Part shown: in pieces, positions 19,517 through 50,906 of the stretch
How the letters are laid out: every line of letters begins with the position of its first letter
Numbering within the stretch: position 1 is the first letter of the stretch
DNA from: Salipiger pallidus
Lineage (GTDB): Bacteria > Pseudomonadota > Alphaproteobacteria > Rhodobacterales > Rhodobacteraceae
Length of the DNA: 64,000 bases
Assembly: GCF_014643635.1 (NCBI RefSeq)
Contig: NZ_BMJV01000004.1
Location: 248,001 to 312,000 of the forward strand
Direction of reading: 5' to 3'
The notes under the pieces: model-generated
Told to the model about the DNA's origin: nothing
Database searches by the model: none
What the model saw: only the letters and a program-made list of their open reading frames with translations
Program-made: the position numbers and the translations under genes

Positions 19517-20785
19517 CTATCGGCGGAACCGGTCCGGGGCATAGGCCGCGACATCGGTGTTGGTGGCGGTGCCGGACACCATCCGGGCTAACAGCTGGCC
19601 GCTACGCGGACCGCCCGTCAGGCCTACATGGTCATGGCCGAACCCCACAAAGGCGCCCTCCACGGCTGGGGCCGGGCCGATCACCGGCAGGGAATCGGCC
19701 ACCGAGGGGCGGAAGCCCATCCATTCGCGGGTGTCTTTCCACGTCAGCCCCGGGATGGCCGCGCGGATCTGCCGTTCCAGCAGGGCAAAGGCCGCGCGCG
19801 AGGGCGGCGCTTTCAGCCCGCCGAACTCCACGATCCCTGCAAGGCGGATGCGTCCTTCCATCGGGGTCGCCACGAACTTGCCCGCGGCGATCATCATCGG
19901 TGCGCGGGGCATTACCGACGGCTCGAGCAGTTCAAGATGATAGCCCCGTTCCGCCTCCATCGGCACGTCCAGCCCCAGCTTGCGGGCAAGAGGCCCGGAC
20001 CAGATCCCCGTGGTCAGCACGGCGGCGTCGCAGGCAATGGTCTCTCCCCCGGCGCGCAGCCCGGTGAGGCGCCCGGCCGCCTGCGCCACGTCCGTCACCT
20101 CGGCCCGGATCAGCCTGCCGCCTTGCGCCACCACGTGATCGGCCAGCGCCCTGACGTAGGCACCGGGGTCCGACACCCGGCCATGATCGCCGAAGCGCGC
20201 CGCGAAGCCGAGGGTGGGGGACCAGATGGGATCGTAATCGCGGAAGGCCTGCCCTTCGAGAATGTCCCAGTTGAACCCGTTCTCGCACCGCACCTCGAAG
20301 CCGAAGGCGTCGCCCTCGTAATGGGCGCGATCGTTGTAGACGAAGAGGTAATCGTCCGGGTGCAGCCAGCGTTCGGCCCCGGTTCCCGTCGCAAGAGCAA
20401 GGTGGTCGTCGAGGCTGCTGCCGATCAGCGCAGTCATGGCGCGGGCGCGGTGGCGCACCGCCTCGGGCGTGGCGTGGGACATGTATTTCATGAGCCACGG
20501 TGCCAGTTTCGGCAGGTAGGGCCACTTGAGGAACAGCGGCTGGTTCGGATCCAGCAGCATTCCCGGGGCCTTGCGCCAAAGCCCGGGGGTCGTCACCGGC
20601 ACCACCGAACAGGCGGCGAGCACGCCGCCATTGCCGTGGCTGGTGCCCGCGGCAGGGCCGTCGCGGTCAATGAGGATCACGTCATGCCCGGCACGCTGCA
20701 GCCATATTGCCGTAGACACCCCGACGATGCCCGCCCCGATCACCGCGACGGTCTTGCGTGTACCCTGCTGCCCTGCGCCGGTCAT
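19517..20785 (-). CDS. FAD-dependent amino-acid dehydrogenase/oxidase, DadA-like
   Basis: A 422-residue DAO-superfamily flavoprotein. The N-terminal dinucleotide fold is VAVIGAGIVGVSTAIWLQRAGH, followed by DRDGPAAGTSHGNGGVL and the C-terminal FGHDHVGLTGGPRSGQLLA, as in D-amino-acid dehydrogenases. It oxidises an amine or amino acid to the imino acid, passing electrons to the quinone pool or oxygen. The ATG at 20785 has AGAGGG upstream; an open frame to 21109 is not conserved. It is divergent from the FAH-family gene. The PuuA-like gene beyond that makes an amine or unusual amino acid a reasonable substrate guess. Confidence 0.82.
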   Translation of the reverse strand: MTGAGQQGTRKTVAVIGAGIVGVSTAIWLQRAGHDVILIDRDGPAAGTSHGNGGVLAACSVVPVTTPGLWRKAPGMLLDPNQPLFLKWPYLPKLAPWLMKYMSHATPEAVRHRARAMTALIGSSLDDHLALATGTGAERWLHPDDYLFVYNDRAHYEGDAFGFEVRCENGFNWDILEGQAFRDYDPIWSPTLGFAARFGDHGRVSDPGAYVRALADHVVAQGGRLIRAEVTDVAQAAGRLTGLRAGGETIACDAAVLTTGIWSGPLARKLGLDVPMEAERGYHLELLEPSVMPRAPMMIAAGKFVATPMEGRIRLAGIVEFGGLKAPPSRAAFALLERQIRAAIPGLTWKDTREWMGFRPSVADSLPVIGPAPAVEGAFVGFGHDHVGLTGGPRSGQLLARMVSGTATNTDVAAYAPDRFRR

Positions 20786-21029
20786 CGTCCCTCTTCCCTT
20801 CTGCGAGTCGTCGCCCCGCATTCGTGCCGGGCCTTTCGGGCGCCGATTGAGCGTGCAGGGCGGGGGAGTGTCAATCGTTGGTGTGGCAACAGTGGGTGGA
20901 GACAGGCAACTTCCTCGGGCGCGCGCGCCGCTCAGGCAGGCAAGGCTGGATTCCGGGGGGCACACGAGGCTATGGCTTGGCCCGGACCCGTGCCGCCGCT
21001 CGGCGCGCCAGACCCGCAAAGGAGCCCCC

Positions 21030-21716
21030 ATGGCCCAAGACATACCCAAGGTCGAGCAACCCTCGGTTGCCATTGTCGGCAGCGACGAGCGTTTCCCCGT
21101 CCGCCGCATCTACTGCGTGGGACGCAACTACGCCGCCCACGCCCGCGAGATGGGCAAGGACCCGGACCGTGAGCCGCCGTTCTTCTTCTCGAAGCCGGGG
21201 GACACGGTGGTGCCGGACGGCGCTACCATTCCCTATCCGCCGCAGACCGAGAACCTGCATTTCGAGGCGGAACTGGTGGTGGCGATCGGCACCGGCGGCC
21301 GTGACATCGCCGAAAGCGACGCGCTCGGCCATGTCTGGGGCTACGCGGTGGGCAACGACCTGACGCGCCGCGACATGCAGGCGGTGGCCAAGGACATGGG
21401 CCGGCCTTGGGATCTTGCCAAGGGCTTCGACCGCTCGGCGCCCATCGCGGCGATGCACCCGGTGTCCGGGGTCGGGCACCCTGACAAGGGGGCCATCAAG
21501 CTCTGGGTCAACGATGACCTGAAGCAGGACGGTGATCTGTCCGAGATGATCTGGCCCGTGCCCGCCATCATCGCTTTCCTGTCGCAAAGCGTGGAACTGG
21601 CTCCGGGCGATCTCATCATGACGGGCACGCCTGCTGGTGTGGGCAAGCTGGCGTCGGGCGATGTCTGCCGGGTCGAGATCGAGGGGCTGGGCAGCCTCAC
21701 GACCACCATCGCCTGA
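21030..21716 (+). CDS. Fumarylacetoacetate hydrolase-family protein
   Basis: A 228-residue FAH-fold enzyme. It has RRIYCVGRNYAAHAREMG near the N-terminus, the metal-binding acidic pair in ENLHFEAELVVAIG, GYAVGNDLTRRD and PGDLIMTGTPAGVG. Family members cleave or decarboxylate C-C bonds in beta-keto/2-oxo acids (fumarylpyruvate hydrolase, oxaloacetate decarboxylase-like). The ATG at 21030 follows AAAGGAG. Monocistronic, with a GC hairpin just after the stop. The exact substrate cannot be set from sequence. Confidence 0.86.
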   Translation: MAQDIPKVEQPSVAIVGSDERFPVRRIYCVGRNYAAHAREMGKDPDREPPFFFSKPGDTVVPDGATIPYPPQTENLHFEAELVVAIGTGGRDIAESDALGHVWGYAVGNDLTRRDMQAVAKDMGRPWDLAKGFDRSAPIAAMHPVSGVGHPDKGAIKLWVNDDLKQDGDLSEMIWPVPAIIAFLSQSVELAPGDLIMTGTPAGVGKLASGDVCRVEIEGLGSLTTTIA

Positions 21717-21990: not shown

Positions 21991-23352
21991 TCAGGCCTTC
22001 TCGAAGCCTCGGCGCAGCTCGTAATCGGTGACCGCGCGGGCGTAATCCTCGATCTCGACCTCGGCGGCGCGGGAATAATGCGCGATGACCTCCGGTCCCA
22101 GCGCGGTCCGCAGCATCTCCGAGCCTTGGAACGCTGCCAGCGCCGCCTCGATCGTCGAGGGCACGTCCGGCGCGCGGTCGTCGCCGTATATGTCTCCCGT
22201 GGAGGGCGGCGCTAGGTCCAGCCCTTCCTCGATCCCCGCGAGACCGGCGGCCAGCTGGCTGGCGGCGGTGAGGTAGGGGTTCATGTCGGAGCCCGGGATG
22301 CGGGTTTCGACCCGCACCGCCCTGGTGTTCTCGCCAACGAGGCGGAAGCCCGCGGTGCGGTTGTCCACCGACCACGCGATGCGGGTGGGGGCGAATGTAC
22401 CGGGCACGAAACGCTTGTAGCTGTTGATGTAGGGCGCCATCAGCAGCAGGCAGTCGGGCGCATATTTCAACAGCCCGGCCACGTAGCTGCGCATCAGCCC
22501 CGACATGCCGTGGTCGCCCTTCGGGTCGTGGAAGACATTGCGGCCGCCCTCGAACAGCGACTGGTGCAGGTGCGCGGCGCTGCCCACCTTGTCCGCCTGC
22601 CACTTGGCCATGAAGGTTGCACCATGGCCCTTCTGGAAGGCGATTTCCTTCACCGCCTGCTTGGAGATCACGTGCTGGTCGCAGGCCAGCATCCCGTCCG
22701 CGTAACGGATGTTGAGCTCGTGCTGGCCTGCCTCGGCCTCGCCCTTGGTGTTCTCAACCGGCACACCCATGGCATAGAGCGCATTGCGCACCGGCTGCAT
22801 GATGTGTTCCTCGCGGGCGCCGAACTGGATCGAGTAATCCTGATTGTAGCGCACCAGCGTCTCAAGATCGCGCCAGCCGCTGGCGCGGATCTCGTCATAG
22901 CTGCGTGCAAAGAGGAAGAATTCGAGCTCGGTCGCCATCATCGGCTCGAATCCCATGGCGCGGGCGCGCTCGATCTGGGTCCGCAGAATCTGACGTGGGG
23001 ACAGCGCGATGGGTGCGTCCGTGGCGGGATCGAAGAGATCGCAGATCACCAGCGCGGTGGCATTGAGCCACGGCACCGGGCGCAGCGTGGCAAGGTCGGG
23101 CTTCAGGGCGTAGTCGCCAAAGCCCTTCTGCCAGTTCACAGCGTCATACCCTTCGGGGGTCGCCATATCGAGATCGGTGGCGATGAGGTAGTTGCAGCAA
23201 TGTGTCCCGCTGCCTGCACTGTCGAGGAAATGCGCCGCGTGGAAGCGTTTGCCCATGAGCCGCCCCTGCATGTCGACAAACGCCACGAGGACGGTGTCGA
23301 TCTGTCCGCTCGCCACCTGCTGGGCGAGGCTTTCGAGGGTCATGATTGTCAT
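21991..23352 (-). CDS. Glutamine synthetase family protein (gamma-glutamylamide/PuuA-like)
   Basis: A 453-residue GS-fold ligase. The N-terminal beta-grasp covers about residues 1-100. The catalytic domain has MATELEFFLFA, GEAEAGQHELN, HGATFMAKW, GSAAHLHQSLF and NRTAGFRLVGENTRAVRVETR. Sequence pattern and length fit GlnA-like/PuuA proteins that ligate glutamate to amines rather than housekeeping GlnA. The start at 23352 follows AAAGGA; 25 upstream codons are rejected. The FAD oxidoreductase and FAH enzyme nearby could form a loose amine catabolism group, but the genes are not in one operon. Convergent with the FAH-family gene. Confidence 0.82.
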   Translation of the reverse strand: MTIMTLESLAQQVASGQIDTVLVAFVDMQGRLMGKRFHAAHFLDSAGSGTHCCNYLIATDLDMATPEGYDAVNWQKGFGDYALKPDLATLRPVPWLNATALVICDLFDPATDAPIALSPRQILRTQIERARAMGFEPMMATELEFFLFARSYDEIRASGWRDLETLVRYNQDYSIQFGAREEHIMQPVRNALYAMGVPVENTKGEAEAGQHELNIRYADGMLACDQHVISKQAVKEIAFQKGHGATFMAKWQADKVGSAAHLHQSLFEGGRNVFHDPKGDHGMSGLMRSYVAGLLKYAPDCLLLMAPYINSYKRFVPGTFAPTRIAWSVDNRTAGFRLVGENTRAVRVETRIPGSDMNPYLTAASQLAAGLAGIEEGLDLAPPSTGDIYGDDRAPDVPSTIEAALAAFQGSEMLRTALGPEVIAHYSRAAEVEIEDYARAVTDYELRRGFEKA

Positions 23353-23890
23353 GGAGGGTCCTTTCAGGGGCAGTGCATGCCGGGAAGGCGGCGCGGCGAC
23401 AGTTCCGCCCTCGCGGCGAAGTGTCAAGCGGGGGCAGCCGTGTGTGGGCGACAGGCCCGCGCAGGACCCACCGGTGCCGTTCGTGATGTCCCTCGAGCTC
23501 GTCTCATGCGCCTTGACCCGTGCAACGGGATCGCAAGTGTCTGGAGGCGCTTCTCGGTAGGGGCGGGGATGTGGGGGAAGAGCACGGGCATGCGCCGCTG
23601 GCCGCTGCGCGGCTTCGCGTCTGCGGACCGGGGTAGCTGACGATGGGTGGCTGGCCCAGCTCTATCTGCACGACAGCGCGGTGGCCGGATCGCCATGTCT
23701 CCATGGCCGGAGGAATGGCGCATGCAGGATCAGATGGGGGCGCGTGGTGGGACAGTGCCGTGCTGCCGGGTCAGCCGATAGGCCGGGGGCTTCGTCCCCG
23801 TCTCCTGCGGCGACGCCCCCGGAGTATTCTTGGCAATGGCGGCGTCGGGGAAGGGGTGGCCGGGGCAGGTGGGCTGCCCCGGCGCGAGGC
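23353..23890. other. Long gap between dctM and the glutamine synthetase gene with GC hairpins
   Basis: 538 bp with no supported gene. Near the dctM end there is a hairpin with arms CCGGGGCAG / CTGCCCCGG (23860-23882), probably the dctM transcript end. GGGGGC...GCCCCC arms lead into GGAGTATTCTTGGCAA (23821-23836), a relative of the GTATTT elements. The part next to the glutamine synthetase start should hold its promoter; no clear -35/-10 pair is visible. Confidence 0.6.
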
Positions 23891-25216
23891 TTACTGCATC
23901 CAGGTGAGCAGGTAGCCGGTCAGTTCGGGCCATGCGCCCACCACCGCGATGCCGATAAGGCTCGTGATGAGGAAGGGCAGGGCCGAGCCGGCGATACGCT
24001 CGAGCGTGAGGCCGGTGATGTTGGCCGCCACGAAGAGGTTGATGCCCACCGGCGGGGTGAAGAGGCCGATGGCAAGGGTGATCGACAGGAAGATGCCGAA
24101 CCACACCGGGTCCCAGCCCATTTCATGCACCACCGGCAGGAACACCGGCAGGCAGATGAACATGATGGTGATGGCGTCCATGAACATACCGGCGATCAGC
24201 AGCACAAGCGCGATGACCATCAGCACGAGGAACGGCGCATGCGAGAACGATAGCAACGCCTCGGAGTACTTGCCGACCACGTCATCTACCGTGACCACCC
24301 AGCCGAAGAGGCTTGCGAAGGTCACCACCATGAGCACCACGGAACTTGCGCGGGCGCTTTCCTTGACCACCTCAACCAGCGAGGTCAGCGTCAGGGTGCG
24401 GTATACGAAGAACCCCAGAGCCATGGCGTAGACCGCCGCGATGATGGCGGCCTCGGTGGGGGTGAAGATGCCCACGTAGATGCCGCCCAGGATCACCACC
24501 GGGGTCAGCAGGCCCCAGAAGGCGTCCTTGAAGCTGAGCCAGACCTGTTTGGCCCAGGGCGCATCACCGTAGGAGACCTCGGCCCGGTGCTTTTCCGCAA
24601 GCGCATCCGGAGCGCCGCCGGCGTGGCGGCGGGCAAAGGGCAGGGTGGCCAGCATCATGACGCCCATGATGATGCCCGGCAGGATCGCCGCGATGAAGAG
24701 GCTGCCGATCGAGACTTCGGCGATCACACCGTAGACCACGAGGCCGATCGACGGTGGGATCACGATGGAAAGCGCCGCGCCGGTGCAGACCAGAGCCGCG
24801 GCATAGGCGCGCGAATAGCCGTCATCGACCATGCCGCGCATGATCATCGGGCCGATGGCCGCCACCGAGGCCGGGCCCGAGCCAGAGACCGCGCCCCAGA
24901 ACAGCGACACGACCACGCCCACGACCCCCATGCCGCCCGGGAGCGAGCCGATGAGGATGCGGAAGAAGCGCACCATGCGGTCCGCAAGGCCGGCGGTGCC
25001 CATGAGCATGCCCGCGAGAATGAAGAACGGGATCGCCAGAAGCGAGAACTTGGTGATGCCCGAAGAGATCAGGTCGCCCACGAGATCGAGCCCGAAGCCC
25101 ATCTGCCACATGGCGTACATGGCAGACACGCCGAGCGAGAACGCCACCGGCACCCGGATCAGCAGCAGGAAGGCGAAGAGGATGAGCATTTGCGTGCCCG
25201 CGGAAATATCAAGCAT
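23891..25216 (-). CDS. dctM: TRAP transporter large permease DctM
   Basis: A 441-residue membrane protein with about 12-13 hydrophobic segments, of the DctM ion-transporter family. Recognisable stretches are PFFILAGMLMGTAGLADR, WGAVSGSGPASVAAIGP and FTPPVGINLFVAANITG. It forms the translocation path of a tripartite, ion-driven importer. The ATG at 25216 overlaps the dctQ gene by 8 bp; an in-frame extension to 25324 is only antisense-like sequence. It is the last gene of dctPQM, divergent from the iclR operon. Confidence 0.95.
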   Translation of the reverse strand: MLDISAGTQMLILFAFLLLIRVPVAFSLGVSAMYAMWQMGFGLDLVGDLISSGITKFSLLAIPFFILAGMLMGTAGLADRMVRFFRILIGSLPGGMGVVGVVVSLFWGAVSGSGPASVAAIGPMIMRGMVDDGYSRAYAAALVCTGAALSIVIPPSIGLVVYGVIAEVSIGSLFIAAILPGIIMGVMMLATLPFARRHAGGAPDALAEKHRAEVSYGDAPWAKQVWLSFKDAFWGLLTPVVILGGIYVGIFTPTEAAIIAAVYAMALGFFVYRTLTLTSLVEVVKESARASSVVLMVVTFASLFGWVVTVDDVVGKYSEALLSFSHAPFLVLMVIALVLLIAGMFMDAITIMFICLPVFLPVVHEMGWDPVWFGIFLSITLAIGLFTPPVGINLFVAANITGLTLERIAGSALPFLITSLIGIAVVGAWPELTGYLLTWMQ

Positions 25217-25766
25217 CTGCGGCCTCCGTGCGGCGGGTGGTGTTTTTGCGCAGCGTATCCTCGGGCGGGGTGCCGGGAACGCGGGCGGCCTCGGCGATGA
25301 GATCGCGCGTCTCGCGGTGGTCACTGATGGTGAACTCGATTGTGCGGATGGCGATCAGCACGAAGGCGAAAGGCAGGGCGACCGAGTAGTACCAGGCCGG
25401 AACCCCGAGGCCCGGGGAGGTCACGCCTGACGCCAGCTGGTTCGCCACCAGCTCCCAGCAGTACCACGCGGCGAGCAGCAGCAGCACCACGCTGATGATG
25501 GCGGCGATGATCTTGACGATGCCTTCGACGCGGGCGCCGAAGAGCCCGGCGAAATAGGTCACCGCCAGGTGCTGGCCTTCACGGGCAGCCATGGAGGCAC
25601 CGAATACGGTCAGCAAAAGAAAGCCGGTCAGCAGCAACTCCTGCGTCGAGGCGAAGGAATAGCTGGTCAGGTAGCGTACGACCACGTTGGCAAACCCGAT
25701 GGCGGTCATGCCAAGGAAGATTGCCACCGAGATCCAGGCTTCGAAATTGTGCAGAAGTTTCTTCAT
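25209..25766 (-). CDS. dctQ: TRAP transporter small permease DctQ
   Basis: A 185-residue four-helix membrane protein. It starts MKKLLHNFEAWISVAIFLGM and has the DctQ hallmark NVVVRYLTSYSFASTQELL and AAREGQHLAVTYF. It is the small subunit that associates with DctM. A hydrophilic C-terminal tail of about 35 residues overlaps dctM in the DNA. It follows dctP after a 231-nt spacer that contains a strong hairpin, an arrangement that usually lets the binding protein be made in excess. Confidence 0.93.
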   Translation of the reverse strand: MKKLLHNFEAWISVAIFLGMTAIGFANVVVRYLTSYSFASTQELLLTGFLLLTVFGASMAAREGQHLAVTYFAGLFGARVEGIVKIIAAIISVVLLLLAAWYCWELVANQLASGVTSPGLGVPAWYYSVALPFAFVLIAIRTIEFTISDHRETRDLIAEAARVPGTPPEDTLRKNTTRRTEAADA

Positions 25767-25945
25767 GGTCTCCTCCCGAGACGGGCGTCGATTCGTATGA
25801 GCGCGCAGGAACTTTTGCCGGAACCGTTAGCGCAATCACAATCGGTTTCCCAGTGCGCTCCGGTCGGGTACGGGGCCCGCCATGCCTTGGGGCGGCGCTG
25901 TGGGGGATCGCCCGGCGCGGGCCTGCGCGCCGGGCCGATATGCAA

Positions 25946-25977
25946 GGGGCGCCGGACCGTGTTTCGGTCGACGCCCC
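25946..25977 (-). promoter_or_regulatory. Intercistronic hairpin between dctP and dctQ
   Basis: GGGGCG/CGCCCC and GACCG/CGGTC arms form a stem with a TGTTT loop, about 20 nt after the dctP stop. There is no T tract. In binding-protein operons such hairpins partly terminate or protect the upstream message, raising binding protein over permease. Confidence 0.6.
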
Positions 25978-25997
25978 CCCCGTGTCATCGCATGCGC

Positions 25998-27011
25998 TTA
26001 CTGCGAAGCGGTGGAGCCGCCTTCGATGGTCTCCTGGAAGAGGCCCACGAGATCGGTACCGACCTTGTCCGCCCACTTGTCGAAGGCGGTCTGGGTGGCG
26101 CTGCGGAAGGCATCGAGGTCGGCATCGGTCGGCTCGTAAACCTCCATGCCCTCGGCCTTCAGGGTCTCGAGACCCGAGGCGGTTGCCTCGCGGGTGATTT
26201 CCTTCTGGTATTCCATCGCTTCTTCGGCGGCAGAAGACATCAGCTCGCGGGTTTCCTCATCCCAGCTCTCCCAGTTCTTCTCGGAGGTGGCGATGAAGAT
26301 CGGGTCGTAGGAATAGTGCCACGGGGTGATGTACTTCTGCACCTCGTAGACACGCTGCGGGATGATCACCGCGCCGATGGGGTTCTCCTGGCCGTCGACC
26401 ACGCCCTGCTGCAGCGCCGAGAAGGTCTCCGTCCATTGCATCTGCTGGGGGTTGGCGCCGAGCGCTTCCATCACGTCGATGTACATCGGACCCGCGACGC
26501 GCATCTTGAGACCAGAAAGGTCATCGGGCGTCTTGATCGGATGCTTGTTGTTGGTCACTTCGCGGAAGCCGTTCTCGCCCCAGGCCAGCAGGTGCAGGCC
26601 GTGCTCGGCGAGGATCTCGCCCATGCGCTCGCCGGGTGCGCCGGAGGTGGTCGCATCGACCTCGTCGTAGTTCGAGTAGAGGTAGGGTAGCGAGAACACC
26701 GCCATCTCTGGGACCAGCGGGGTCACGTTGATCGCCGATGTGACGACGAAGTCGATGGAGCCGCGGCCAACCATCTCGGCCTGTTTCATCTGGTCGCCGC
26801 CGGTCAGCTGGGCATTGGGGAAGATGCGGACGGTGGTGTCGCCGCCGGTGCCTTCCGAGACCAGTTCCGCGAACTTGTCCGAGCCCTTCTGCCAGGTGGT
26901 GGTGTCGCCGGTGTTGTGCGACAGTCGCAGCGTCTCGGCCGAAGCTGCGGAAACTGTGTGGGTGAGGGCCAGTGCGGCAAATGCCACCGCCGTCTTGCGC
27001 AGATAGGTCAT
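25998..27011 (-). CDS. dctP: TRAP transporter substrate-binding protein DctP
   Basis: A 337-residue periplasmic DctP/TAXI-like solute receptor. It has a signal peptide (MTYLRKTAVAFAALALTHTV, cleavage after AASA), then LRLSHNTGDTTTWQKGSDKFAELV. The ligand-carboxylate region is LSGLKMRVAGPMYIDVMEALGANP, where the Arg of KMRV normally binds the substrate carboxylate. The ATG at 27011 is preceded by GGAGGACATC. First gene of dctPQM, sharing its upstream region with iclR; substrate is probably the acid consumed by the divergent operon. Confidence 0.94.
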   Translation of the reverse strand: MTYLRKTAVAFAALALTHTVSAASAETLRLSHNTGDTTTWQKGSDKFAELVSEGTGGDTTVRIFPNAQLTGGDQMKQAEMVGRGSIDFVVTSAINVTPLVPEMAVFSLPYLYSNYDEVDATTSGAPGERMGEILAEHGLHLLAWGENGFREVTNNKHPIKTPDDLSGLKMRVAGPMYIDVMEALGANPQQMQWTETFSALQQGVVDGQENPIGAVIIPQRVYEVQKYITPWHYSYDPIFIATSEKNWESWDEETRELMSSAAEEAMEYQKEITREATASGLETLKAEGMEVYEPTDADLDAFRSATQTAFDKWADKVGTDLVGLFQETIEGGSTASQ

Positions 27012-27069
27012 GATGTCCTCCCTAGGATATGTCGAAATCCGGTGCTGTCCTCCAACAGCGTGCTGGAGT

Positions 27070-27086
27070 GTGTCCATAAGGTGGAC
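27070..27086. promoter_or_regulatory. IclR-type operator candidate 1 (dctP side)
   Basis: GTGTCCATAAGGTGGAC contains the inverted repeat GTCCA-N5-TGGAC. It matches the second site (27209) at 15 of 17 positions, mismatching only at variable centre and end bases. It lies about 59 nt before the dctP ATG, where a repressor could block that promoter. Confidence 0.6.
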
Positions 27087-27208
27087 TTCGATTCAAGTCG
27101 ATTTGGTCAAGAATCTTCACCATTTTCGGCAATTACAATCATCTATCTGAATTTAAAGGTTAAATAAATCATTTGACGAAGCAGCATGCACGTTGTCATC
27201 ATTTATGG

Positions 27209-27225
27209 GTGTCCACAATGTGGAT
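27209..27225. promoter_or_regulatory. IclR-type operator candidate 2 (iclR side)
   Basis: GTGTCCACAATGTGGAT contains TCCAC-AAT-GTGGA, the same dyad as the site at 27070; start-to-start distance is 139 bp, about 13 helical turns. It lies downstream of a TTGACG hexamer (27173-27178) that could be a -35 for iclR. The whole 27012-27311 interval is much more AT-rich than its surroundings. Confidence 0.6.
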
Positions 27226-27311
27226 GCATTGGGCGAAAATCACGGTTTCGTTGACTGTCTAATAAGGCAGGCCGCCCGAGGGGAGGAACATCGCAAGTTG
27301 AAGGTCGCAGC

Positions 27312-28196
27312 ATGAAGCAGCCTAGAATCGCTCTTCCCGACCAGGGGCAGATCGCCGGGGCGCAAAGCGTGTCCCGCGCCCTTGGCCTGTTGCCGCTGCT
27401 CGGGCGCAATCCGGTGCATGGCATGGGCATTGGCGAGATCGTCGAGGAAACCGGCCTAAGCCGTCCAACCGCCCGCCGGCTGCTGCTGTCGCTGATGTAT
27501 AGCGGCATGGTGGATCAGGATCCCCAGACCAAATGCTACATGCTGGGCGAGGAAATCTATCTGCTCGGCTCGCTTGCGGCGCAGCGGTTCGGGCTGCTCG
27601 ACGTGGCCCACGACAGCGTTCAAAGGCTCGCTGAAGCCACTGGAGACACTGCGTTTCTCTCCGTACGCCGCGATGTCTTCGCGCTGTGCGTCCACAAAGA
27701 GGAAGGCGACTTCCCGATCCGCGTTCAGGCCTTGCAAGTGGGCTACCGCCACCCGCTTGGCGTGGGGGCCGGATCGTTGTCGATACTCGCCGCGCTCGAC
27801 GATGACGAGGTCGAAGAGATCCTCGAGCAAAACGCCCGCCTGCTGGCAGAGGACTACCCCCGCGCCTCGGTGCCGGCCCTGCGCGATGCGGTGGCCCAGA
27901 CCCGGGAACGGGGCTGGGCGCTTAACCCCGGCATGGTGCTGGCCAACAGCTGGGCCATCGGCCGCGCCATCCGCATGCCCGACGGGCACGCTGTCGGAGC
28001 GCTGTCGGTGGCGGCCATCGACAGCCGCATGAGCCCCGACCGCCAGCACGAAATCGCCGCCCGCATCGCCGAGGCGGTAGAGCAGGTCGAAAGCCGTCTC
28101 GCACGCCGTCACGGCGCCGGGCATGGCAGCAACATCCGCCCGCGCGACAGCGCGCAGGCGCCGAAATCAGGGTCCAGACCGCGTCACAGCGCCTGA
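27312..28196 (+). CDS. IclR-family transcriptional regulator
   Basis: A 294-residue IclR regulator. The N-terminal winged helix spans about residues 18-80 (SVSRALGLLPLLG, then GIGEIVEETGLSRPTARRLL). The C-terminal effector domain covers about 95-265 with the usual VGYRHPLGVGAGSLSILAAL and GWALNPGMVLANSWAIGRAI. It likely senses the substrate or a CoA pathway intermediate and controls both dctPQM and its own operon through the two dyads upstream. The thiolase gene follows 22 nt later. A short Arg-rich tail follows the effector domain. Confidence 0.92.
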   Translation: MKQPRIALPDQGQIAGAQSVSRALGLLPLLGRNPVHGMGIGEIVEETGLSRPTARRLLLSLMYSGMVDQDPQTKCYMLGEEIYLLGSLAAQRFGLLDVAHDSVQRLAEATGDTAFLSVRRDVFALCVHKEEGDFPIRVQALQVGYRHPLGVGAGSLSILAALDDDEVEEILEQNARLLAEDYPRASVPALRDAVAQTRERGWALNPGMVLANSWAIGRAIRMPDGHAVGALSVAAIDSRMSPDRQHEIAARIAEAVEQVESRLARRHGAGHGSNIRPRDSAQAPKSGSRPRHSA

Positions 28197-28218
28197 CCCA
28201 AACCAGGAGGAGAATCCC

Positions 28219-29391
28219 ATGACGTTGGCACAGATCGCAGGCTGGGCGCACACGCGTTTCGGCAAATCCGAAGCCCCCGACACCGAAGCGCTGCTGGCCG
28301 AGGTGGTGCCCCCGGCGCTGGACCACGCAGGCGTACCTGCGTCCATGGTCGACGGCATCTTCGTCGGCTGCTTCAACAACGGCTTTTCGAAGCAGGATTT
28401 CATCGGCGCATTGCCCGGCATGGTGGCCGAGGATCTGGCGCTAAAGCCCGCCGTGCGGGTCGAAAACGCCTGCGCCACCGGGTCGGCCGCGCTGTATGCG
28501 GCGCTTGATTTCATTGAATCGGGCCGGGGCAAGGTGGCGCTGGTCGTGGGCGTCGAGAAGATGACCGCCCTGCCGACCGCGGACGTGGGCGATATCCTGC
28601 TGGGCGCCAGTTACCGCAAGGAAGAAGCTGACGTCACGGGTGGCTTTGCGGGCCTCTTCGGACGCATCGCGCAGAGCTATTTCCAGAAATACGGCGACCA
28701 GTCCGAAGCGCTGGCGATGATCGCGTCCAAGAACCACACCAATGGCGCGGCGAACCCCTATGCGCACATGCAAAAGGCATTCTCGGTCGAGCAGTGCAAC
28801 ACCATCAGTGACAAGAACCCCTACGTCGCGCAGCCCCTGCGCCGCACCGACTGTTCGCTGATCTCGGACGGTGCCGCTGCCATGATCGTGGTGCACCCCG
28901 ACATCGCCGCCGATCTTGAGCGTGCCATCGCCTTCCGCGCATCGACCCACACCAACGACGTGTTGGCCCTGTCGCGCCGCGATCCAATCGCCTTCGACGG
29001 CGCGCGCCGTGCCTGGGCGGGATCGCTTGAAGAGGCGGGCATGACGCTCGATGATCTTGATTTCGTCGAAACCCACGACTGCTTCACCATCGCCGAGCTC
29101 ATCGAATACGAAGCCATGGGCCTTGCTGAGCCGGGCAAGGGAGCGGACGTCATTCGCAATGGTGTCTCGGCGCGGGGCGGCAAGCTGCCGATCAACCTGT
29201 CGGGCGGGCTGAAGTCCAAGGGCCATCCCATCGGGGCCACCGGCGTGTCGATGCACGTGATGGCTGCGATGCAGCTGGCCGGCGAGGCGCCCGAGGGCGT
29301 GCAGGCCGAAAAGGCCAACGTGGCCGGGGTCTTCAACATGGGCGGCGCTGCCGTCGCCAACTACTGCTCGATCATGGAGCGTGTGAAATGA
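28219..29391 (+). CDS. Thiolase-family protein (SCP-x/lipid-transfer type)
   Basis: A 390-residue thiolase-fold enzyme. The nucleophilic Cys is Cys85 in VENACATGSAALYAAL. ETHDCFTIAELIEYEAMG and SGGLKSKGHPIGATG give the active-site His regions; the C-terminus is NMGGAAVANYCS. This is the SCP-x/DitF subgroup that cleaves beta-keto-acyl-CoA with bulky acyl groups. These thiolases usually need a DUF35 OB-fold partner; none is here, and the PPC proteins of the operon are conceivable substitutes. ATG after AGGAGGAGAATCCC. Stop overlaps the ligase start as ATGA. Confidence 0.9.
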   Translation: MTLAQIAGWAHTRFGKSEAPDTEALLAEVVPPALDHAGVPASMVDGIFVGCFNNGFSKQDFIGALPGMVAEDLALKPAVRVENACATGSAALYAALDFIESGRGKVALVVGVEKMTALPTADVGDILLGASYRKEEADVTGGFAGLFGRIAQSYFQKYGDQSEALAMIASKNHTNGAANPYAHMQKAFSVEQCNTISDKNPYVAQPLRRTDCSLISDGAAAMIVVHPDIAADLERAIAFRASTHTNDVLALSRRDPIAFDGARRAWAGSLEEAGMTLDDLDFVETHDCFTIAELIEYEAMGLAEPGKGADVIRNGVSARGGKLPINLSGGLKSKGHPIGATGVSMHVMAAMQLAGEAPEGVQAEKANVAGVFNMGGAAVANYCSIMERVK

Positions 29392-31013
29392 ATGACATGA
29401 ACTTCACCTCCCCCCTGGCGGACCCGGTGGGGGGCATCGCGCCCCAGACGACCCGGGTGGCCAACCTTGCCCATTTCCTCACCCGCAACGCGCGCCGTTA
29501 CCCGGACCGCCCGGCGGTGATCTGGGAGGGCACGATCTGGACCTGGGCCGAGATGGATGCCCGCGTGTCGGCGCTTGCCGCGGCCATGATGGAACGCTTC
29601 GGCGTCACCAAGGGCACCCGCGTGCTGGTGCAGTCGCAGAACTGCAACCAGATGTTTGAAAGCATGTTCGCCTGCTTCCGGCTTGGTGCGGTCTGGGTGC
29701 CCACCAACTTCCGCCAGAGCCCCGATGAGGTGGCGTGGCTGGCGCAAAGTTCGGGGTCGACGCTGATGATCACCGGGGCCGAATTCCCCGATCATGTGGC
29801 GGCCTGTGACGGCATTGACCGGCACATCACCATTGGCGGTGACGGCGCGGATGATTTTGACACCATCGTGTCCGAATTCATGGGCGCAAGCGTTGCCAAC
29901 GAACCGGTGGACCGCGACGATCCCTGCTGGTTCTTCTTCACCTCCGGCACAACCGGGCGTCCCAAGGCGGCCGTTCTGACCCACGGGCACATGTCCTTCG
30001 TTGTGCTCAATCACCTCAACGATTTGATGCCCGGCTCGAACGTCGACAACATGTCTCTGGTGGTGGCGCCGCTCTCGCATGGTGCGGGCATCCACCAGCT
30101 GGTGAACGCCGCGGCGGGCGGCGGCATGGTGCTGCTGCCCAAGGGCAAGTTCGATGTCTCCGAGGCATGGCTCCTCGTGGCCGAGCACAAGGTGACCAAC
30201 ATGTTCACCGTGCCGACCATCGTGAAGATGCTGGTCGAGGACCCTTCGGTGGACGAGCATGACCGCTCGAGCCTCAAGCAGGTGATTTATGCCGGTGCGC
30301 CCATGTACCGCGCCGATCAGAAATATGCGCTGAACAAGCTGGGCCCGGTGCTGGTGCAGTATTTCGGCCTTGGCGAGGTCACCGGCAACATCACCGTGCT
30401 GCCGCCTTCCGAGCATTTCGCTGAGGATGCGGACATGCGCGTCGGCTCCTGCGGGCACGAGCGCACCGGCATGCAGGTGTCGATCCAGGACGACGAGGGC
30501 CGCGAGCTTGCGCCCTTCGAGACCGGCGAGATCTGCGTCTGCGGCCCGGCGGTCTTTGCGGGCTACTACGACAACCCTGAGGCCAATGCCAAAAGCTTCC
30601 GGGGCGGGTTCTTCCGCACCGGCGATCTGGGGCACGTGGACGAGCAGGGCTACCTCTACATCACCGGGCGCAGCTCGGACATGTACATCTCGGGCGGCTC
30701 GAACGTCTACCCGCGCGAGATCGAGGAAAAGCTGCTGACCCTCGACGGGCTAACCGAAGTGGCGGTCCTTGGCATCCCCGACCCCAAGTGGGGTGAGGTG
30801 GGCGTCGCCGTCTGCGTCGCGCGCGAGGGGGCAACCGTGTCCGAAGAGGACGTGGTGTCGTTCCTGAAACCCAAGGTCTCGGGCTACAAGGTGCCGCGCA
30901 AGGTCTTCTTCTTCGACGAGATGCCCAAGACCTCCTACGGCAAGATCACCAAGAAGCTGATCCGCGAGACCCTCGTGGAGCGCGGGCTGGTAACGCTGGA
31001 GGCCGCGCAGTGA
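29388..31013 (+). CDS. Acyl-CoA synthetase (AMP-forming)
   Basis: A 541-residue ANL-superfamily ligase. The P-loop is WFFFTSGTTGRPKAAVLTH and the adenylate region is QYFGLGEVTG. Hinge-region YITGRSSDMYISGGSNVYPREIEEKL is followed by the C-terminal catalytic Lys in PKTSYGKITKKLIRE. It adenylates a carboxylic acid and forms the CoA thioester, committing the substrate to the pathway. Substrate class (fatty, aromatic or keto acid) cannot be read safely. It overlaps the thiolase gene by 4 bp and the double-PPC gene by 4 bp. Confidence 0.93.
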   Translation: MNDMNFTSPLADPVGGIAPQTTRVANLAHFLTRNARRYPDRPAVIWEGTIWTWAEMDARVSALAAAMMERFGVTKGTRVLVQSQNCNQMFESMFACFRLGAVWVPTNFRQSPDEVAWLAQSSGSTLMITGAEFPDHVAACDGIDRHITIGGDGADDFDTIVSEFMGASVANEPVDRDDPCWFFFTSGTTGRPKAAVLTHGHMSFVVLNHLNDLMPGSNVDNMSLVVAPLSHGAGIHQLVNAAAGGGMVLLPKGKFDVSEAWLLVAEHKVTNMFTVPTIVKMLVEDPSVDEHDRSSLKQVIYAGAPMYRADQKYALNKLGPVLVQYFGLGEVTGNITVLPPSEHFAEDADMRVGSCGHERTGMQVSIQDDEGRELAPFETGEICVCGPAVFAGYYDNPEANAKSFRGGFFRTGDLGHVDEQGYLYITGRSSDMYISGGSNVYPREIEEKLLTLDGLTEVAVLGIPDPKWGEVGVAVCVAREGATVSEEDVVSFLKPKVSGYKVPRKVFFFDEMPKTSYGKITKKLIRETLVERGLVTLEAAQ

Positions 31014-31903
31014 CCGCTGCCATGCGCAACACCAGCCCCGCTCAAGACGCGCTGCCCGGGGTGAACGCCCCGCTGCGCCACCCCGGACCCGCCGCCGAGG
31101 CGCGGGTTCAGGCGGTGGCCACCCCCCTGCGCGAGATCGAAATCACCTGCGATGGCGAAGCCTCTCTGGAGGCGGCGGTCATCGCTGCGTTCGATGCTGC
31201 GGGTGTGAAGGGCGGATTCGTCGAGATCGAAAACCTTGCCTGCAGCTGCATCGACTACGTTGTGCCGGCGCTGTCGGAATTTCCGGACCGGCTGGCGTGG
31301 TATTCCGCCCCGCGCAGCCCGCAGGGGCCGGCGCGGATCCGGCAGGGCTACATGTCCGTGGGCCGTGACGGCGAGGCGGGCTTTGTCCACTGCCACGGCA
31401 TCTGGACGTTGGCCAATGGCCGCCGGGCGCTGGGGCATCTGCTGGGCGGCCAGACCGTCCCCGAGGCCGGGCAGACCCTGCGCGCCCGGGGGTTCGAGAC
31501 CGCCTTCTTCGACCGTCAGCCTGACGCCGAAACCAATTTCAGTCTGTTCGGCGCTGTCGGCGAGGATGCGGCCAAGCCCACGGCGCTTGCCGTCACCCTG
31601 CGTCCGAACGAGGACATCCCCGCCACCTGCATGGCGCTTTGTGAGCAGATGGGCTGGGACGGCGCGACGGTGATCGGCCTTGGCAGTCTCAACGGCGCGG
31701 GCTTTGCCGGGGACAGCATCATGCAGGACCACGTGTCGGAATTTCTCGTCCGTCGTGGCCATGTCAGCCCCAGTCACGCGGACATCGACATCGCCGTGGT
31801 CGACAGCAGCGCCAACGTCTTCGAGGGCATCCTTGCCACGGGGCAGGGGCGCGTCTCGATCACCTCCGAACTCGTGCTTCTGGCCACCCCGCCACAAGAC
31901 TGA
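31010..31903 (+). CDS. Double PPC (DUF296)-domain protein
   Basis: A 297-residue protein with two different PPC-like halves. The first (about residues 20-175) has RHPG, WYSAP, FVHCHGIW, GHLLGG and PDAETN. The second (about 185-297) has LRPNEDIPATCMALCEQMGW and GLGSLNGAGF. The first half resembles the protein at 33309 and the second half the one at 33853, so this gene looks like a fusion of the two. PPC proteins form trimers and bind small ligands or metals through conserved His; bacterial functions are largely unknown. Start is GTG 31010, overlapping the ligase stop, with GGAGG upstream. Confidence 0.72.
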   Translation: MTAAMRNTSPAQDALPGVNAPLRHPGPAAEARVQAVATPLREIEITCDGEASLEAAVIAAFDAAGVKGGFVEIENLACSCIDYVVPALSEFPDRLAWYSAPRSPQGPARIRQGYMSVGRDGEAGFVHCHGIWTLANGRRALGHLLGGQTVPEAGQTLRARGFETAFFDRQPDAETNFSLFGAVGEDAAKPTALAVTLRPNEDIPATCMALCEQMGWDGATVIGLGSLNGAGFAGDSIMQDHVSEFLVRRGHVSPSHADIDIAVVDSSANVFEGILATGQGRVSITSELVLLATPPQD

Positions 31904-31925
31904 CCCCCATATGGGAGGAGAACCC

Positions 31926-32714
31926 ATGAGCATCGTAAAACCCATCCTCATCACCGGGGGGGCGTCGGGCATCGGCTATGCCACCGCCGAGGCCTGCCAG
32001 AAGGCGGGCTTTGCGGTCGCCATTCTGGACATGAACGAAGCCGCGCTCGAGACCGCGCGCGCCTCGCTGCCCAATCCGGACCATGTGCTGACCTGCGCGG
32101 CCTCCGTCACCGACGAAGCCGCGGTCGAAGCATTCTGCGACGAAATCGAAGCCAGCTTCGGCACGCTTTACGGCGTGGTGAACTCTGCCGGGATCGGGCA
32201 TGACGCCCGTGCGCTCGACACCTCGGCGGACGAGTTTCGCCGGGTGCTCGAGGTCAACCTGATCGGCAGCTTCACGGTCTCCAAGGCCGCCGCGCGCCGG
32301 ATGCTGCCGCGTGGCGAAGGTGCTGTCGTCAACATCGCATCTGTGTCGGGCATGATGGGCAACGTGGGCCGCACCGCATATGGTGCCACCAAGGGCGGCG
32401 TCATCTCCATGACCAAGGTCATGGCGGTCGAGCTGAGCGAACACGGCATTCGCGTCAACGCGGTCGCGCCGGGCCCGATCGAAACGCCGCTGGTGCGTGA
32501 TCACCACACGCCGGAAATGCGTGCGGGCTGGATCGACACCGTGCCGCAGCGCCGCTACGGCACTTCCGAGGAAATCGCGCAGGCGGCTCTGTTCCTGCTT
32601 GATGGGTCCAAGTCGGGTTACATCAACGGGCAAGTGCTGGCTGTAGACGGCGGCTTTACCATCGGCGGCGTGCTCGATGGCGTCGCGCCCCGCAGCTACG
32701 GGATGGCCTCATGA
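31926..32714 (+). CDS. Short-chain dehydrogenase/reductase (SDR)
   Basis: A 262-residue classical SDR. The cofactor motif is ITGGASGIGYATAEA; VNSAG, the catalytic Ser of IASVSGMMG and YGATKGG (YxxxK) complete the tetrad region; PGPIETPLV follows. It oxidises an alcohol or reduces a ketone with NAD(P)(H). In this operon the natural role is to oxidise a beta-hydroxy group before thiolysis. ATG after GGGAGGAG; 22-nt gap from the double-PPC gene, and a 4-bp ATGA overlap with the next gene. Confidence 0.92.
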   Translation: MSIVKPILITGGASGIGYATAEACQKAGFAVAILDMNEAALETARASLPNPDHVLTCAASVTDEAAVEAFCDEIEASFGTLYGVVNSAGIGHDARALDTSADEFRRVLEVNLIGSFTVSKAAARRMLPRGEGAVVNIASVSGMMGNVGRTAYGATKGGVISMTKVMAVELSEHGIRVNAVAPGPIETPLVRDHHTPEMRAGWIDTVPQRRYGTSEEIAQAALFLLDGSKSGYINGQVLAVDGGFTIGGVLDGVAPRSYGMAS

Positions 32715-33277
32715 TCGGCTATGCCCTCGGAGACACGGCCCCGCGCGGGCCGGAAGACGGCGAGGCCTGGGTCGCTCCTACCGCCACGCTTATTGGTGAT
32801 GTGCGGCTTTGCAACGACGCCTCGATCTGGTTCGGCGCGGTGCTGCGCGCCGACGACGGCATCATCGAGATCGGAGAGGGATCGAACGTGCAGGACCTGA
32901 GCGTGCTGCATGTGGACCCCGGCTTTCCCATCCATGTGGGGCGCAACGTGACCATTGGTCACCGCGCCATGGTCCACGGCTGCACGATCGGCGACGGCAC
33001 CCTCATCGGCATGGGGGCGACCATCCTCAACGGTGCGAAGATCGGCAACAACTGCCTGATCGGGGCCAATGCGCTGGTGACCGAAGGCAAGGTCATTCCC
33101 GACAATTCCATGGTGCTTGGCAGCCCCGGCAAGATCGTGCGCGAGATCGACGAGGCCACGGCCGAAGGCATCCTCGAGGGCAGCCGCACCTACCAGCGCC
33201 GCTGGCGCCGCTTCCGTGACGAGATGAAACAGCAACAGGCCCCGGCTGACGGGGTCTTGGCCGCGGTCTCCGCCTGA
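32711..33277 (+). CDS. Gamma carbonic anhydrase-like hexapeptide-repeat protein
   Basis: A 188-residue left-handed beta-helix protein with many (L/I/V)-G-x4 turns. The metal-ligand His set lies in NVQDLSVLHVD and GHRAMVHGC; SIWFGAVLRAD is typical of YrdA/gamma-CA proteins. A C-terminal helix (RRWRRFRDEM) packs trimers. Known relatives include carbonic anhydrases and, in phenylacetate catabolism, PaaY, a thioesterase that rescues CoA from dead-end thioesters. In a CoA-ligase operon the thioesterase role is a fair hypothesis; CO2 hydration is the alternative. Confidence 0.85.
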   Translation: MIGYALGDTAPRGPEDGEAWVAPTATLIGDVRLCNDASIWFGAVLRADDGIIEIGEGSNVQDLSVLHVDPGFPIHVGRNVTIGHRAMVHGCTIGDGTLIGMGATILNGAKIGNNCLIGANALVTEGKVIPDNSMVLGSPGKIVREIDEATAEGILEGSRTYQRRWRRFRDEMKQQQAPADGVLAAVSA

Positions 33278-33308
33278 GCGGGCCGCCTCAACGCAAGGGA
33301 CCAGTCCC

Positions 33309-33869
33309 ATGAACAAGTTTCCTTCGCGGCACCGGGCGCGGTCCATGCGCCACCCGGGCCGCTTCAACCCGGTCCGCATCCAGTCCGAGAGCGATCTCGA
33401 GGGGCGGCATTTCCGCCTGCTCCTCACGCCCGGCCAGTCGCTGCGCGATGCCATCGTCGAGCCGCTTCGGGCGGTCGGCGTGACCTCGGCCTCGACGACG
33501 ATCCTTGGCGGGTTCTTTTCGCAGCTGTCGTATTGCGTGGCGCCGCCCGATCCGTCGGGGCAGGCGGTGATCGCCTATTCGGCGCCCATCGACGCTGGCC
33601 CGACCTGCATGATCTTCGGCAATGCCACGCTTGGGCTCAGCTCCGAAGGCGATCCGCTGGTCCATTGCCACGCCGCCATCCGCACCTCGGGGGGCGAGTA
33701 TCGCGGCGGGCACATCCTGCCGGACCGCTCGATCATCGGGCCGACGCCGATCCCGGTTCTGGTCACTGCCTTCGAGGGCTTCAGCCTGCGCCAGAGCTTC
33801 GATCCTGAAACCAACATTCCCCTGCTACAGCCCTTCAGAGAGGACGCCCGCAATGAATCTCATGCCTGA
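33309..33869 (+). CDS. Single PPC (DUF296)-domain protein, type B
   Basis: A 186-residue protein with MRHPGRFNPVRIQS at the N-terminus, YSAP near the middle, LVHCHAAI, GGHILPD and FDPETNIPLL. These markers occur in the same order in the first half of the double-PPC protein (31010), so the two are paralogues. The conserved HCH and GGH are likely ligand or metal sites. The stop lies 17 nt inside the next gene, implying coupled translation of types B and C. Function unknown; probably acts as a complex with type C. Confidence 0.7.
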   Translation: MNKFPSRHRARSMRHPGRFNPVRIQSESDLEGRHFRLLLTPGQSLRDAIVEPLRAVGVTSASTTILGGFFSQLSYCVAPPDPSGQAVIAYSAPIDAGPTCMIFGNATLGLSSEGDPLVHCHAAIRTSGGEYRGGHILPDRSIIGPTPIPVLVTAFEGFSLRQSFDPETNIPLLQPFREDARNESHA

Positions 33870-34257
33870 CCAGCCCGGATCCGTCGTTGAGAAGGGCCGC
33901 ATGGGCCGCGTCGCCTATGCCCGTATCGCGCCCAATGAGGATCTCGTGCGCGGGATCGAGAAGCTGTGCCTTGCGGAAGGGTTCGAGAACGCCTTTGTGC
34001 GCGGCGCGCTCGGCAGTCTCGTGGATGCCTGCGTGCTGGCCAATGACGGTACCGAGATCCACGTCTCGGGGCCCGCGGTCGAGATCGTCAGCCTTGCCGG
34101 TGAAGTGCGGTCCAAGGACGGATCGGTCGAGGCGTCGCTGTCGGGTGTCGTGGCCGACCCTTCGGGGATCATCCACGGTGGGCCGTTCGTCTCGGGAGGC
34201 AACCCCATCTGCATGACCTTCGAGGTCACGCTGGAGGAATGGCTGCCCGAAGCCTGA
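33853..34257 (+). CDS. Single PPC (DUF296)-domain protein, type C
   Basis: A 134-residue protein with RIAPNEDLVRGIEKLCLAEG, ALGSLVDACV and a C-terminal FVSGGNPICMTFEVTLEEW. It corresponds to the second half of the double-PPC protein (APNED versus RPNED, GALGSL versus GLGSL). It has the classic PPC order: Glu-Asp near the start, Gly-Ser loop, His-containing VADPSGIIHGG strand. The ATG at 33853 is chosen for the well-placed AGAGGA 8 nt upstream. Last gene before a strong terminator hairpin. Confidence 0.7.
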   Translation: MNLMPDQPGSVVEKGRMGRVAYARIAPNEDLVRGIEKLCLAEGFENAFVRGALGSLVDACVLANDGTEIHVSGPAVEIVSLAGEVRSKDGSVEASLSGVVADPSGIIHGGPFVSGGNPICMTFEVTLEEWLPEA

Positions 34258-34387: not shown

Positions 34388-35314
34388 ATGGTGCAGGGCG
34401 GCGCGCAGATCACCCTTCTTGATGGCGGCCTTGGCCGTGAGCTGATGCGCTTCGGCGCGGAACTGACCCAGCCGGAATGGTCGGCGGGGGCGCTCATGGA
34501 TGCGCCGGACGCGGTGCGGCAGGCGCATGAAGCGTTCTTTCGCGCAGGCGCCAGCATTGCCACGGCCAACACCTATGCCGTCGTGCCCTATCACCTCGGA
34601 AAGGACCGTTTTGACGCACGGGGGGCCGAGCTGGCCGCACTTGCCGGGCGACTTGCCCGCGAGGCCGCCGAAGCAGTGCGCGATGTGCGCCCCGGGGCGC
34701 GGGTGGCGGGATCCCTGCCGCCTGCCTGCGGCTCCTACCTGCCGCGCAATTTCGACCCCGTGGAAGGCGCACGCATCCTGTCGGTATTGGTGAGCGCGCT
34801 AAAGCCTTATGCCGATTTCTGGCTGGCCGAGACCATGAGCAGCCTCACCGAGGCGCGCGTTACCGCGAACGCGGTTGCCGGCACGGACAAGCCGCTGTGG
34901 ATCTCGTGGAGTCTGCGGGACGATCCCGGTGACGACACCCGCCCGCCGGCGCTGCGCTCGGGCGAGCCGCTGGTCGATGCGGTGGCGCTCGCGGTTGAAC
35001 TGGGGGCGGGGGCGGTGCTGTTCAACTGCTCCATGCCCGAGGTGATGGAGCGCGCGGTGCGCGAGACGCGCGCGCAGCTTGATGCGGCAGAGCAGGCGAT
35101 TTCCGTGGGGGTCTATGCCAACGCCTTTACCGCGCGGGGCGAGGATGGCGCCGCCAACGAGGTGCTGGCGACGATCCGGGACGATCTGTCGCCGCAAGCC
35201 TACCTGCGCTGGACCGAAAGATGGGTCGCTGCGGGGGCCACGATGATCGGGGGCTGCTGCGGGATCGGTGCAGAGCATATAGCTGCGCTGCAAGATCGCT
35301 GGGTCGCAGTATAG
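34388..35314 (+). CDS. Homocysteine S-methyltransferase family protein
   Basis: A 308-residue BHMT/MmuM-type TIM-barrel protein. It starts ITLLDGGLGRELMRFG, then ATANTYAVVPYHL. The zinc ligands are Cys in VLFNCSMPEV and the Cys pair in MIGGCCGIG near the C-terminus. It transfers a methyl group from S-methylmethionine or a betaine-like donor to homocysteine. The ATG at 34388 is needed to keep the conserved LLDGGLG start. It sits directly after the terminator, so expression may be set by readthrough. Relation to the upstream catabolic genes is uncertain. Confidence 0.88.
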   Translation: MVQGGAQITLLDGGLGRELMRFGAELTQPEWSAGALMDAPDAVRQAHEAFFRAGASIATANTYAVVPYHLGKDRFDARGAELAALAGRLAREAAEAVRDVRPGARVAGSLPPACGSYLPRNFDPVEGARILSVLVSALKPYADFWLAETMSSLTEARVTANAVAGTDKPLWISWSLRDDPGDDTRPPALRSGEPLVDAVALAVELGAGAVLFNCSMPEVMERAVRETRAQLDAAEQAISVGVYANAFTARGEDGAANEVLATIRDDLSPQAYLRWTERWVAAGATMIGGCCGIGAEHIAALQDRWVAV

Positions 35315-50857: not shown

Positions 50858-50886
50858 AAAAACGCCCGGCCACGAGGGCCGGGCGC
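50858..50886 (-). terminator. Intrinsic terminator of the outer-membrane barrel gene
   Basis: On the minus strand the 9-bp arms CGCCCGGCC and GGCCGGGCG are followed by TTTTT. It starts about 20 nt after the stop of the barrel gene at 50907. Confidence 0.93.
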
Positions 50887-50906
50887 GGTGCCTTTGATCT
50901 GGAGGA

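Follow-up and report, generated by a model that had tools for sequence, protein, structure and literature searches.

A recurring pair of acyl-CoA ligase and PPC genes in a putative IclR/TRAP catabolic locus of Salipiger pallidus

The closest known relatives of the proteins treated here are the PPC/PCC (DUF296) proteins AF0104 (2h6l), PH0802 (2dt4) and LmiA from enterohaemorrhagic Escherichia coli (EHEC). The family has members in plants, archaea and bacteria. DNA binding is a frequent annotation for them, yet several carry a metal-type site. The solved PPC/PCC proteins are one-domain chains of approximately 140 residues, whereas in the locus analyzed here metal-type and metal-free domains are paired and stand beside an acyl-CoA ligase, or are fused to it in related genomes. 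This PPC partner of the ligase is the new element. The locus lies in a window of 64,000 nucleotides from Salipiger pallidus (contig NZ_BMJV01000004.1, positions 248,001 to 312,000). One arm encodes a TRAP transporter (dctP, dctQ, dctM), and the divergent arm encodes an IclR-family regulator, an SCP2-type thiolase, the ligase, a fused double PPC protein (PPC1), a short-chain dehydrogenase/reductase (SDR), a gamma-carbonic-anhydrase-like protein and two further PPC proteins (PPC2, PPC3).

A first-pass annotation had read this region as an undescribed IclR/TRAP catabolic locus. As a recurring and very probably co-regulated CoA catabolic locus it stands; the ligase–PPC unit, the split double PPC and the metal signature had been missed. 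We found no description of the gene set or of the ligase–PPC pair in the open-access literature, subscription journals being mostly outside this search, which is in agreement with the attribute “undescribed”. We propose, with a probability of slightly above one half, that the locus is a single regulon through which a carboxylate imported by the TRAP system is broken down in a CoA-dependent manner, with the ligase and the pair of metal-type and metal-free PPC domains acting as a unit.

Recurrence of the gene set and its ligase–PPC unit

The gene set recurs across alpha- and betaproteobacteria, and because it was found again in many genomes its association is beyond chance. A search for recurrence had been suggested by the first-pass annotation, and the set turned up in many other genomes in order-level, class-level and thiolase-seeded samples. 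PPC1 is present in 27 of 292 genomes of the order, including that of S. pallidus, and in the PPC1-seeded loci of this level the ligase stands beside it in 28 out of 28 cases. The 27 neighbourhoods (up to 20 kb, from 26 other genomes) contain the thiolase in 25, IclR in 21 and DctP in 21 cases, with a DctP at least 60% identical to that of the window in 11 of the 27. PPC1-seeded sets are uninformative on how often the ligase occurs without PPC; the thiolase-seeded set does show that. It comprises 80 named alpha- and betaproteobacterial loci, taken as the top-ranking ones from at least 512 matches to the thiolase, and PPC genes were counted wherever they fell in the fetched flanks. Within these best 80 the ligase is adjacent to the thiolase in 57 loci, 48 of which have PPC genes in their flanks. 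The remaining 23 thiolase loci lack the ligase, and no PPC gene was found in the fetched flanks of any of them; two (L077, L145) stop less than 500 bp past the thiolase. The 48 PPC-positive loci divide into 32 with the fused form only, 12 in which a split pair replaces the double PPC, and 4 with both forms, as in the window.

In the class-level sample the unit occurs in 14 out of 289 genomes (E 1e-15). Leaving aside S. pallidus itself, the ligase directly precedes the PPC unit in 13 out of 13 genomes (3 fused, 10 split), and the thiolase lies in the fetched stretch of 10 of these 13 loci. The distance between ligase and PPC exceeds 600 bp in 15 of 80 PPC-bearing core loci, and an SDR gene often lies between the distant partners (e.g. 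L059, L060, L065). According to the thiolase-seeded, class-level and spacing counts, ligase and PPC are the tightest unit and the thiolase comes next, while IclR, TRAP and SDR genes are common but replaceable. These counts bear on the scheme of the first-pass annotation, in which ligase, SDR and thiolase form an ordinary beta-oxidation tail and the PPC genes are passengers without relation to it. The three enzyme families suit such a tail, as does the fact that no gene of the locus matches a dehydrogenase or hydratase, but the pairing of PPC and ligase in three differently drawn sets, together with the gene fusion described below, makes this scheme highly unlikely.

Named plasmid carriers include Paracoccus denitrificans, Sulfitobacter indolifex, Agrobacterium tumefaciens, Sinorhizobium meliloti and Rhizobium leguminosarum. 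Nine of 49 carrier records were examined, and the ligase is part of the stretch in eight of them. The exception is a Skermanella rosea plasmid (L064), where the double-PPC gene lies next to a ParB gene and a glycosyltransferase cluster.

The PPC fold of Pfam family PF03479 (gathering cut-off 25 bits) is present at the locus, with PPC1 (31.6 bits, domain 2) and PPC3 (54.6 bits) above the cut-off. Pfam alone detects only domain 2 of PPC1. PPC2 falls just under the cut-off at 21.6 bits, and its assignment therefore depends on profile comparison and motif. In hhalign, PPC2 corresponds to residues 17-186 of PPC1 (E 3.3e-32) and PPC3 to residues 187-294 (E 1.5e-22); judged from these alignments, PPC2 and PPC3 are a split double PPC matching the two halves of PPC1. 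In two Rhizobiales genomes (L070, L071) a single open frame, of 834 and 870 codons respectively, spans the ligase together with both PPC domains. The two look alike and the fusion could be a single event. Such a fusion is strong evidence for a joint task of ligase and PPC unit.

The motif H-x-H...G-H occurs in domain 1 of all 97 distinct matches (domain-2 matches and broken frames excluded), in PPC1 as H127, H129 and H143. Its spacing is usually 11-13 residues, and 7 in five full-length proteins. PPC2 carries it as HCH...GGH in 14 of 14 aligned sequences, and it is absent from domain 2 of PPC1 and from PPC3. The signature is that of a metal site, and domain 1 may bind a metal. As a possible objection, the PPC unit might lack catalytic activity and serve as a structural or substrate-handing subunit which joins ligase and thiolase, comparable to the DUF35 proteins that play such a partner role for other thiolases. 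The position of the PPC genes next to the ligase, with occasional fusion, would fit this, as would the motif-free domain 2 and PPC3 and the absence of any DUF35 match (Pfam) among the 11 locus genes. A motif kept in 97 out of 97 matches while the PPC sequences drift to approximately 30% identity exceeds the needs of a scaffold, however, and we regard a purely structural role as rather unlikely.

Several observations weigh against a catalytic ligase–PPC unit. The published DUF296 protein LmiA binds DNA directly and regulates transcription, and its histidines 85, 87 and 101 are spaced as H127, H129 and H143 of PPC1 (PMC7667037). The motif alone is thus no proof of an enzyme. Furthermore, nine of the 57 thiolase-seeded ligase loci lack PPC genes. 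In four of them (L105, L107, L120, L130) the contig stops shortly past the ligase or SDR gene, and five have remaining flank in which no PPC gene was found (L087, L095, L099, L108, L113). In the last of these, from Paracoccus hibiscisoli, a Rep3 plasmid replication gene directly follows the ligase. The LmiA precedent also favors the view that the PPC proteins regulate the operon by binding DNA, and “putative DNA-binding protein” is the title of two of the matched PPC entries in the PDB (3htn, 3hwu). Yet the locus already possesses iclR with candidate operators, and PPC adjoins the ligase even in loci where no iclR or TRAP match was found (L173, L175, L181). This adjacency and the ligase fusion are the reasons why we prefer the role of an enzyme partner and consider a regulatory role quite unlikely. 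The near-constant acyl-CoA ligase partner and the fusion make a catalytic or enzyme-partner role of PPC proteins directly testable.

The plasmid locus of Martelella sp. NC18 (L066), where the PPC1 match is spread over several frames or stretches, was considered as a natural split of PPC1 and dropped. The same fragmentation affects its matches to thiolase, iclR and dctM, hence either the locus is decayed or the record is faulty (sequencing errors).

Twin palindromes in the divergent promoter

The first-pass annotation had placed a shared AT-rich regulatory region between the two arms, and G+C content indeed drops to 34% at 27100-27199, compared to approximately 65% on both sides. The palindrome TCCAYAWNRTGGA occurs here twice, at 27073 and 27212, 139 bp apart. 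The second copy lies just past a weak promoter-like match at 27173-27202 (one found, 0.5 expected). Across 18 divergent promoter regions, a score of 9/12 or higher is reached by 27 sites, compared to 1.0 in shuffled sequence, a comparison which is partly circular because the pattern was read off the same 18 promoters and the control was a plain base shuffle. Twelve of the promoters have two sites, three have one (L039, L042, L050) and three have none (L034, L043, L055).

Two tests are fairer, namely a scan of the own genome and a look at promoters whose operons are arranged differently. In the 4.44 Mb genome five places match the pattern exactly, two of them in this promoter, and the reversed pattern has three matches. 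Where another TRAP gene heads the operon, the pair precedes that gene in both compared cases (L058, L060). With a slightly looser pattern, pairs 60-220 bp apart with at most one mismatch were found in 33 of 90 loci and in none of the shuffled loci, the place of most pairs relative to genes not having been verified one by one. Their spacings cluster at 95-97, 105-109, 117-119, 127-129, 139-143 and 149 bp, with outliers at 82, 123 and 124 bp; six periods were tried for this and relatedness was ignored. Steps of about one helical turn suggest a loop or tetramer bridging both sites. As the twin palindromes recur, mostly whole helical turns apart, the two arms are very probably co-regulated, a question which the first-pass annotation had raised, and IclR is the candidate protein to bind the palindromes. 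A second IclR of the own genome (L002, C1:420100), 39% identical, is encoded divergently to an SDR gene.

Enzymes, transporter and a possible pathway

The thiolase belongs to the SCP2 type by family score as well as by its residues. Cys85, His286, Cys288 and His336, located in the motifs NAC(A/S)TGS (Cys), HDCF (His and Cys) and GHP (His), are unchanged in 16 out of 16 aligned sequences, and we take these to be the catalytic positions, which would accordingly be intact. SCP2-type thiolases including benzoylsuccinyl-CoA thiolase (7pxp) share sequence family and catalytic residues with it; the present locus differs from them in possessing the PPC unit where a DUF35 match is lacking. The ligase scores above the cut-offs of both PF00501 (AMP-binding) and PF13193 (C-terminal), which makes it an ANL acyl-CoA ligase. 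The NCBI names of the thiolase (PRK07516) and ligase (PRK07470) families are generic only.

The transporter is complete, with DctP, DctQ and DctM all present. The best PDB relative of DctP is the TRAP solute-binding protein H16_A1328 (4p8b), whose ligand is presumably 2-acetolactate. A review (PMC5812351) only lists this compound among TRAP ligands. The first-pass annotation had noted the lack of acyl-CoA dehydrogenase and enoyl-CoA hydratase, and Pfam likewise gave no match to either among the 11 locus genes. This would fit entry of the substrate at the level of a hydroxy- or keto-acid, which the first-pass annotation had specified as a beta-hydroxy or beta-keto acid.

We suggest the following sequence of events. 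IclR would bind two operators on the same face of the helix in the shared promoter and control both arms, the TRAP system would import a carboxylate, and the PRK07470 ligase would activate the imported acid. The PPC unit, made of one metal-type and one metal-free domain in one protein (PPC1), in two (PPC2 and PPC3) or fused to the ligase, may act on what the ligase consumes or produces, i.e. the acid or its CoA ester. A bound metal could hold a carboxylate or hydroxy-keto group by analogy to acetolactate decarboxylase (PF03306), although the partners of that enzyme differ from those of the PPC unit. No Pfam match to PF03306 was found in the PPC proteins or in the own genome, and profile comparison of both families by hhalign was not significant. 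The SDR would oxidize or reduce, making or using a keto group, and the thiolase would cleave the chain, so that the pathway would end in thiolysis. Both the catalytic nature of the PPC unit and this reaction order are what we infer from the gene set. Only tentatively, at a little under even odds, do we go further and regard the PPC pair as a new enzyme class working with acyl-CoA ligase, and thus as a catalytic role for DUF296, in a widespread undescribed CoA pathway of alpha- and betaproteobacteria. An alpha-branched hydroxy-keto acid is one possible substrate in this reading. Many bacteria from soil and sea carry the pathway, and its substrate could be approached through the TRAP binding protein and the twin palindromes. 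The Sphingobium vanilloyl-acetate pathway was dropped as a match after a literature search showed nothing on this gene set.

The gamma-carbonic-anhydrase-like protein is clearly related to solved proteins of this kind (9rmq), and scores below the curated cut-offs of the gamma carbonic anhydrase and PaaY models (157/250 and 125/320 bits). Its gene occurs in one of 89 other core loci, PPC1-seeded ones included, namely in Microvirga (L106), and is accessory.

Gene layout and surroundings

All genes named in the first-pass annotation are open and match their families in Pfam and NCBIfam (Table 1). The TRAP arm (23891-27011, minus strand) was correctly placed on the left and extends further than noted, to dctQ and dctM. 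The opposite arm runs from iclR to PPC3 (27312-34257, plus strand). Overlaps of 4 to 17 bp had been claimed between most genes, which only just holds, since five of nine same-arm junctions overlap (8, 4, 4, 4 and 17 bp) and four have gaps (231, 22, 22 and 31 bp). The frame of dctM is open from 25324 with a likely start at 25216; likely starts of the thiolase, SDR and PPC3 genes are 28219, 31926 and 33853. The top NCBIfam model for iclR is BhcR, with a score under its cut-off.

Table 1. Features of the locus, with positions as in the window
Feature	Position	Strand	Evidence or remark
dctM, TRAP large permease	23891..25216	-	Pfam DctM 5.6e-98; TIGR00786 above cut-off
dctQ, TRAP small permease	25209..25766	-	Pfam DctQ 1.8e-28
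dctP, TRAP solute-binding protein	25998..27011	-	likely start 27011
Candidate IclR operator 1, TCCATAAGGTGGA	27073..27085		upstream of dctP
Candidate IclR operator 2, TCCACAATGTGGA	27212..27224		near-perfect palindrome; upstream of iclR
iclR, IclR-family regulator	27312..28196	+	Pfam HTH_IclR and IclR_C
SCP2-type thiolase, family PRK07516	28219..29391	+	NF005704 633.6 bits, cut-off 412
Acyl-CoA ligase, family PRK07470	29388..31013	+	NF005676 867.4 bits, cut-off 774
PPC1, double PPC protein	31010..31903	+	domain 1 ~32-185, domain 2 ~187-294
SDR oxidoreductase	31926..32714	+	Pfam adh_short_C2 2.8e-63
Gamma-carbonic-anhydrase-like hexapeptide protein	32711..33277	+	NF050158 157 bits, under cut-off 250; 9rmq E 5e-57
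PPC2, free-standing counterpart of PPC1 domain 1	33309..33869	+	hhalign to PPC1; HCH...GGH motif
PPC3, free-standing counterpart of PPC1 domain 2	33853..34257	+	Pfam PCC 54.6 bits; hhalign to PPC1

Clustering the neighbours of 89 core loci gave 14 clusters outside the gene set. Nine of these are, according to Pfam, transporters, regulators and one 1-deoxyxylulose-5-phosphate-synthase-like protein, the latter in the flanks of five core loci (e.g. L038:17111-19129); the other five resemble, by appearance only, frames opposite to genes. Twenty neighbours from five class-level loci have mixed functions. A zinc-type dehydrogenase (ADH_N, ADH_zinc_N) directly follows PPC3 in two split-pair loci (L177:10509-11507, L182:10403-11473), and in a third (L175) the frame past 8251, after PPC3, reads by eye like one too. 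On plasmid pRLG203 of R. leguminosarum (L065) genes for an acyl-CoA dehydrogenase and two enoyl-CoA hydratase-type proteins, together with mmsB, come after the operon, an arrangement similar to valine breakdown in its isobutyryl-CoA branch. Such a dehydrogenase/hydratase neighbourhood appears in no cluster of at least four loci among the 89.

Around the ligase-less thiolases, six neighbour proteins from four of the 23 loci (L074, L097, L102, L131) showed no common theme. They are a FecCD permease, an AsnC-type regulator, a urate oxidase, an IlvD/Edd-type dehydratase, an enoyl-CoA hydratase and an AstE-type protein, the dehydratase (L102:8214-9932) lying upstream of a thiolase without ligase or PPC partner.

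In the window itself the TRAP arm is adjoined by a glutamine-synthetase-like gene (21991-23427, minus strand), with a FAD-dependent DAO oxidoreductase (19517-21109, minus strand) nearby; the two are like genes of amine or gamma-glutamyl catabolism. A gene with a homocysteine S-methyltransferase domain (34388-35314, plus strand) lies approximately 130 bp downstream of PPC3. The sole tRNA of the window is a tRNA-Ser (anticodon GGA) at 50867-50939 on the plus strand.

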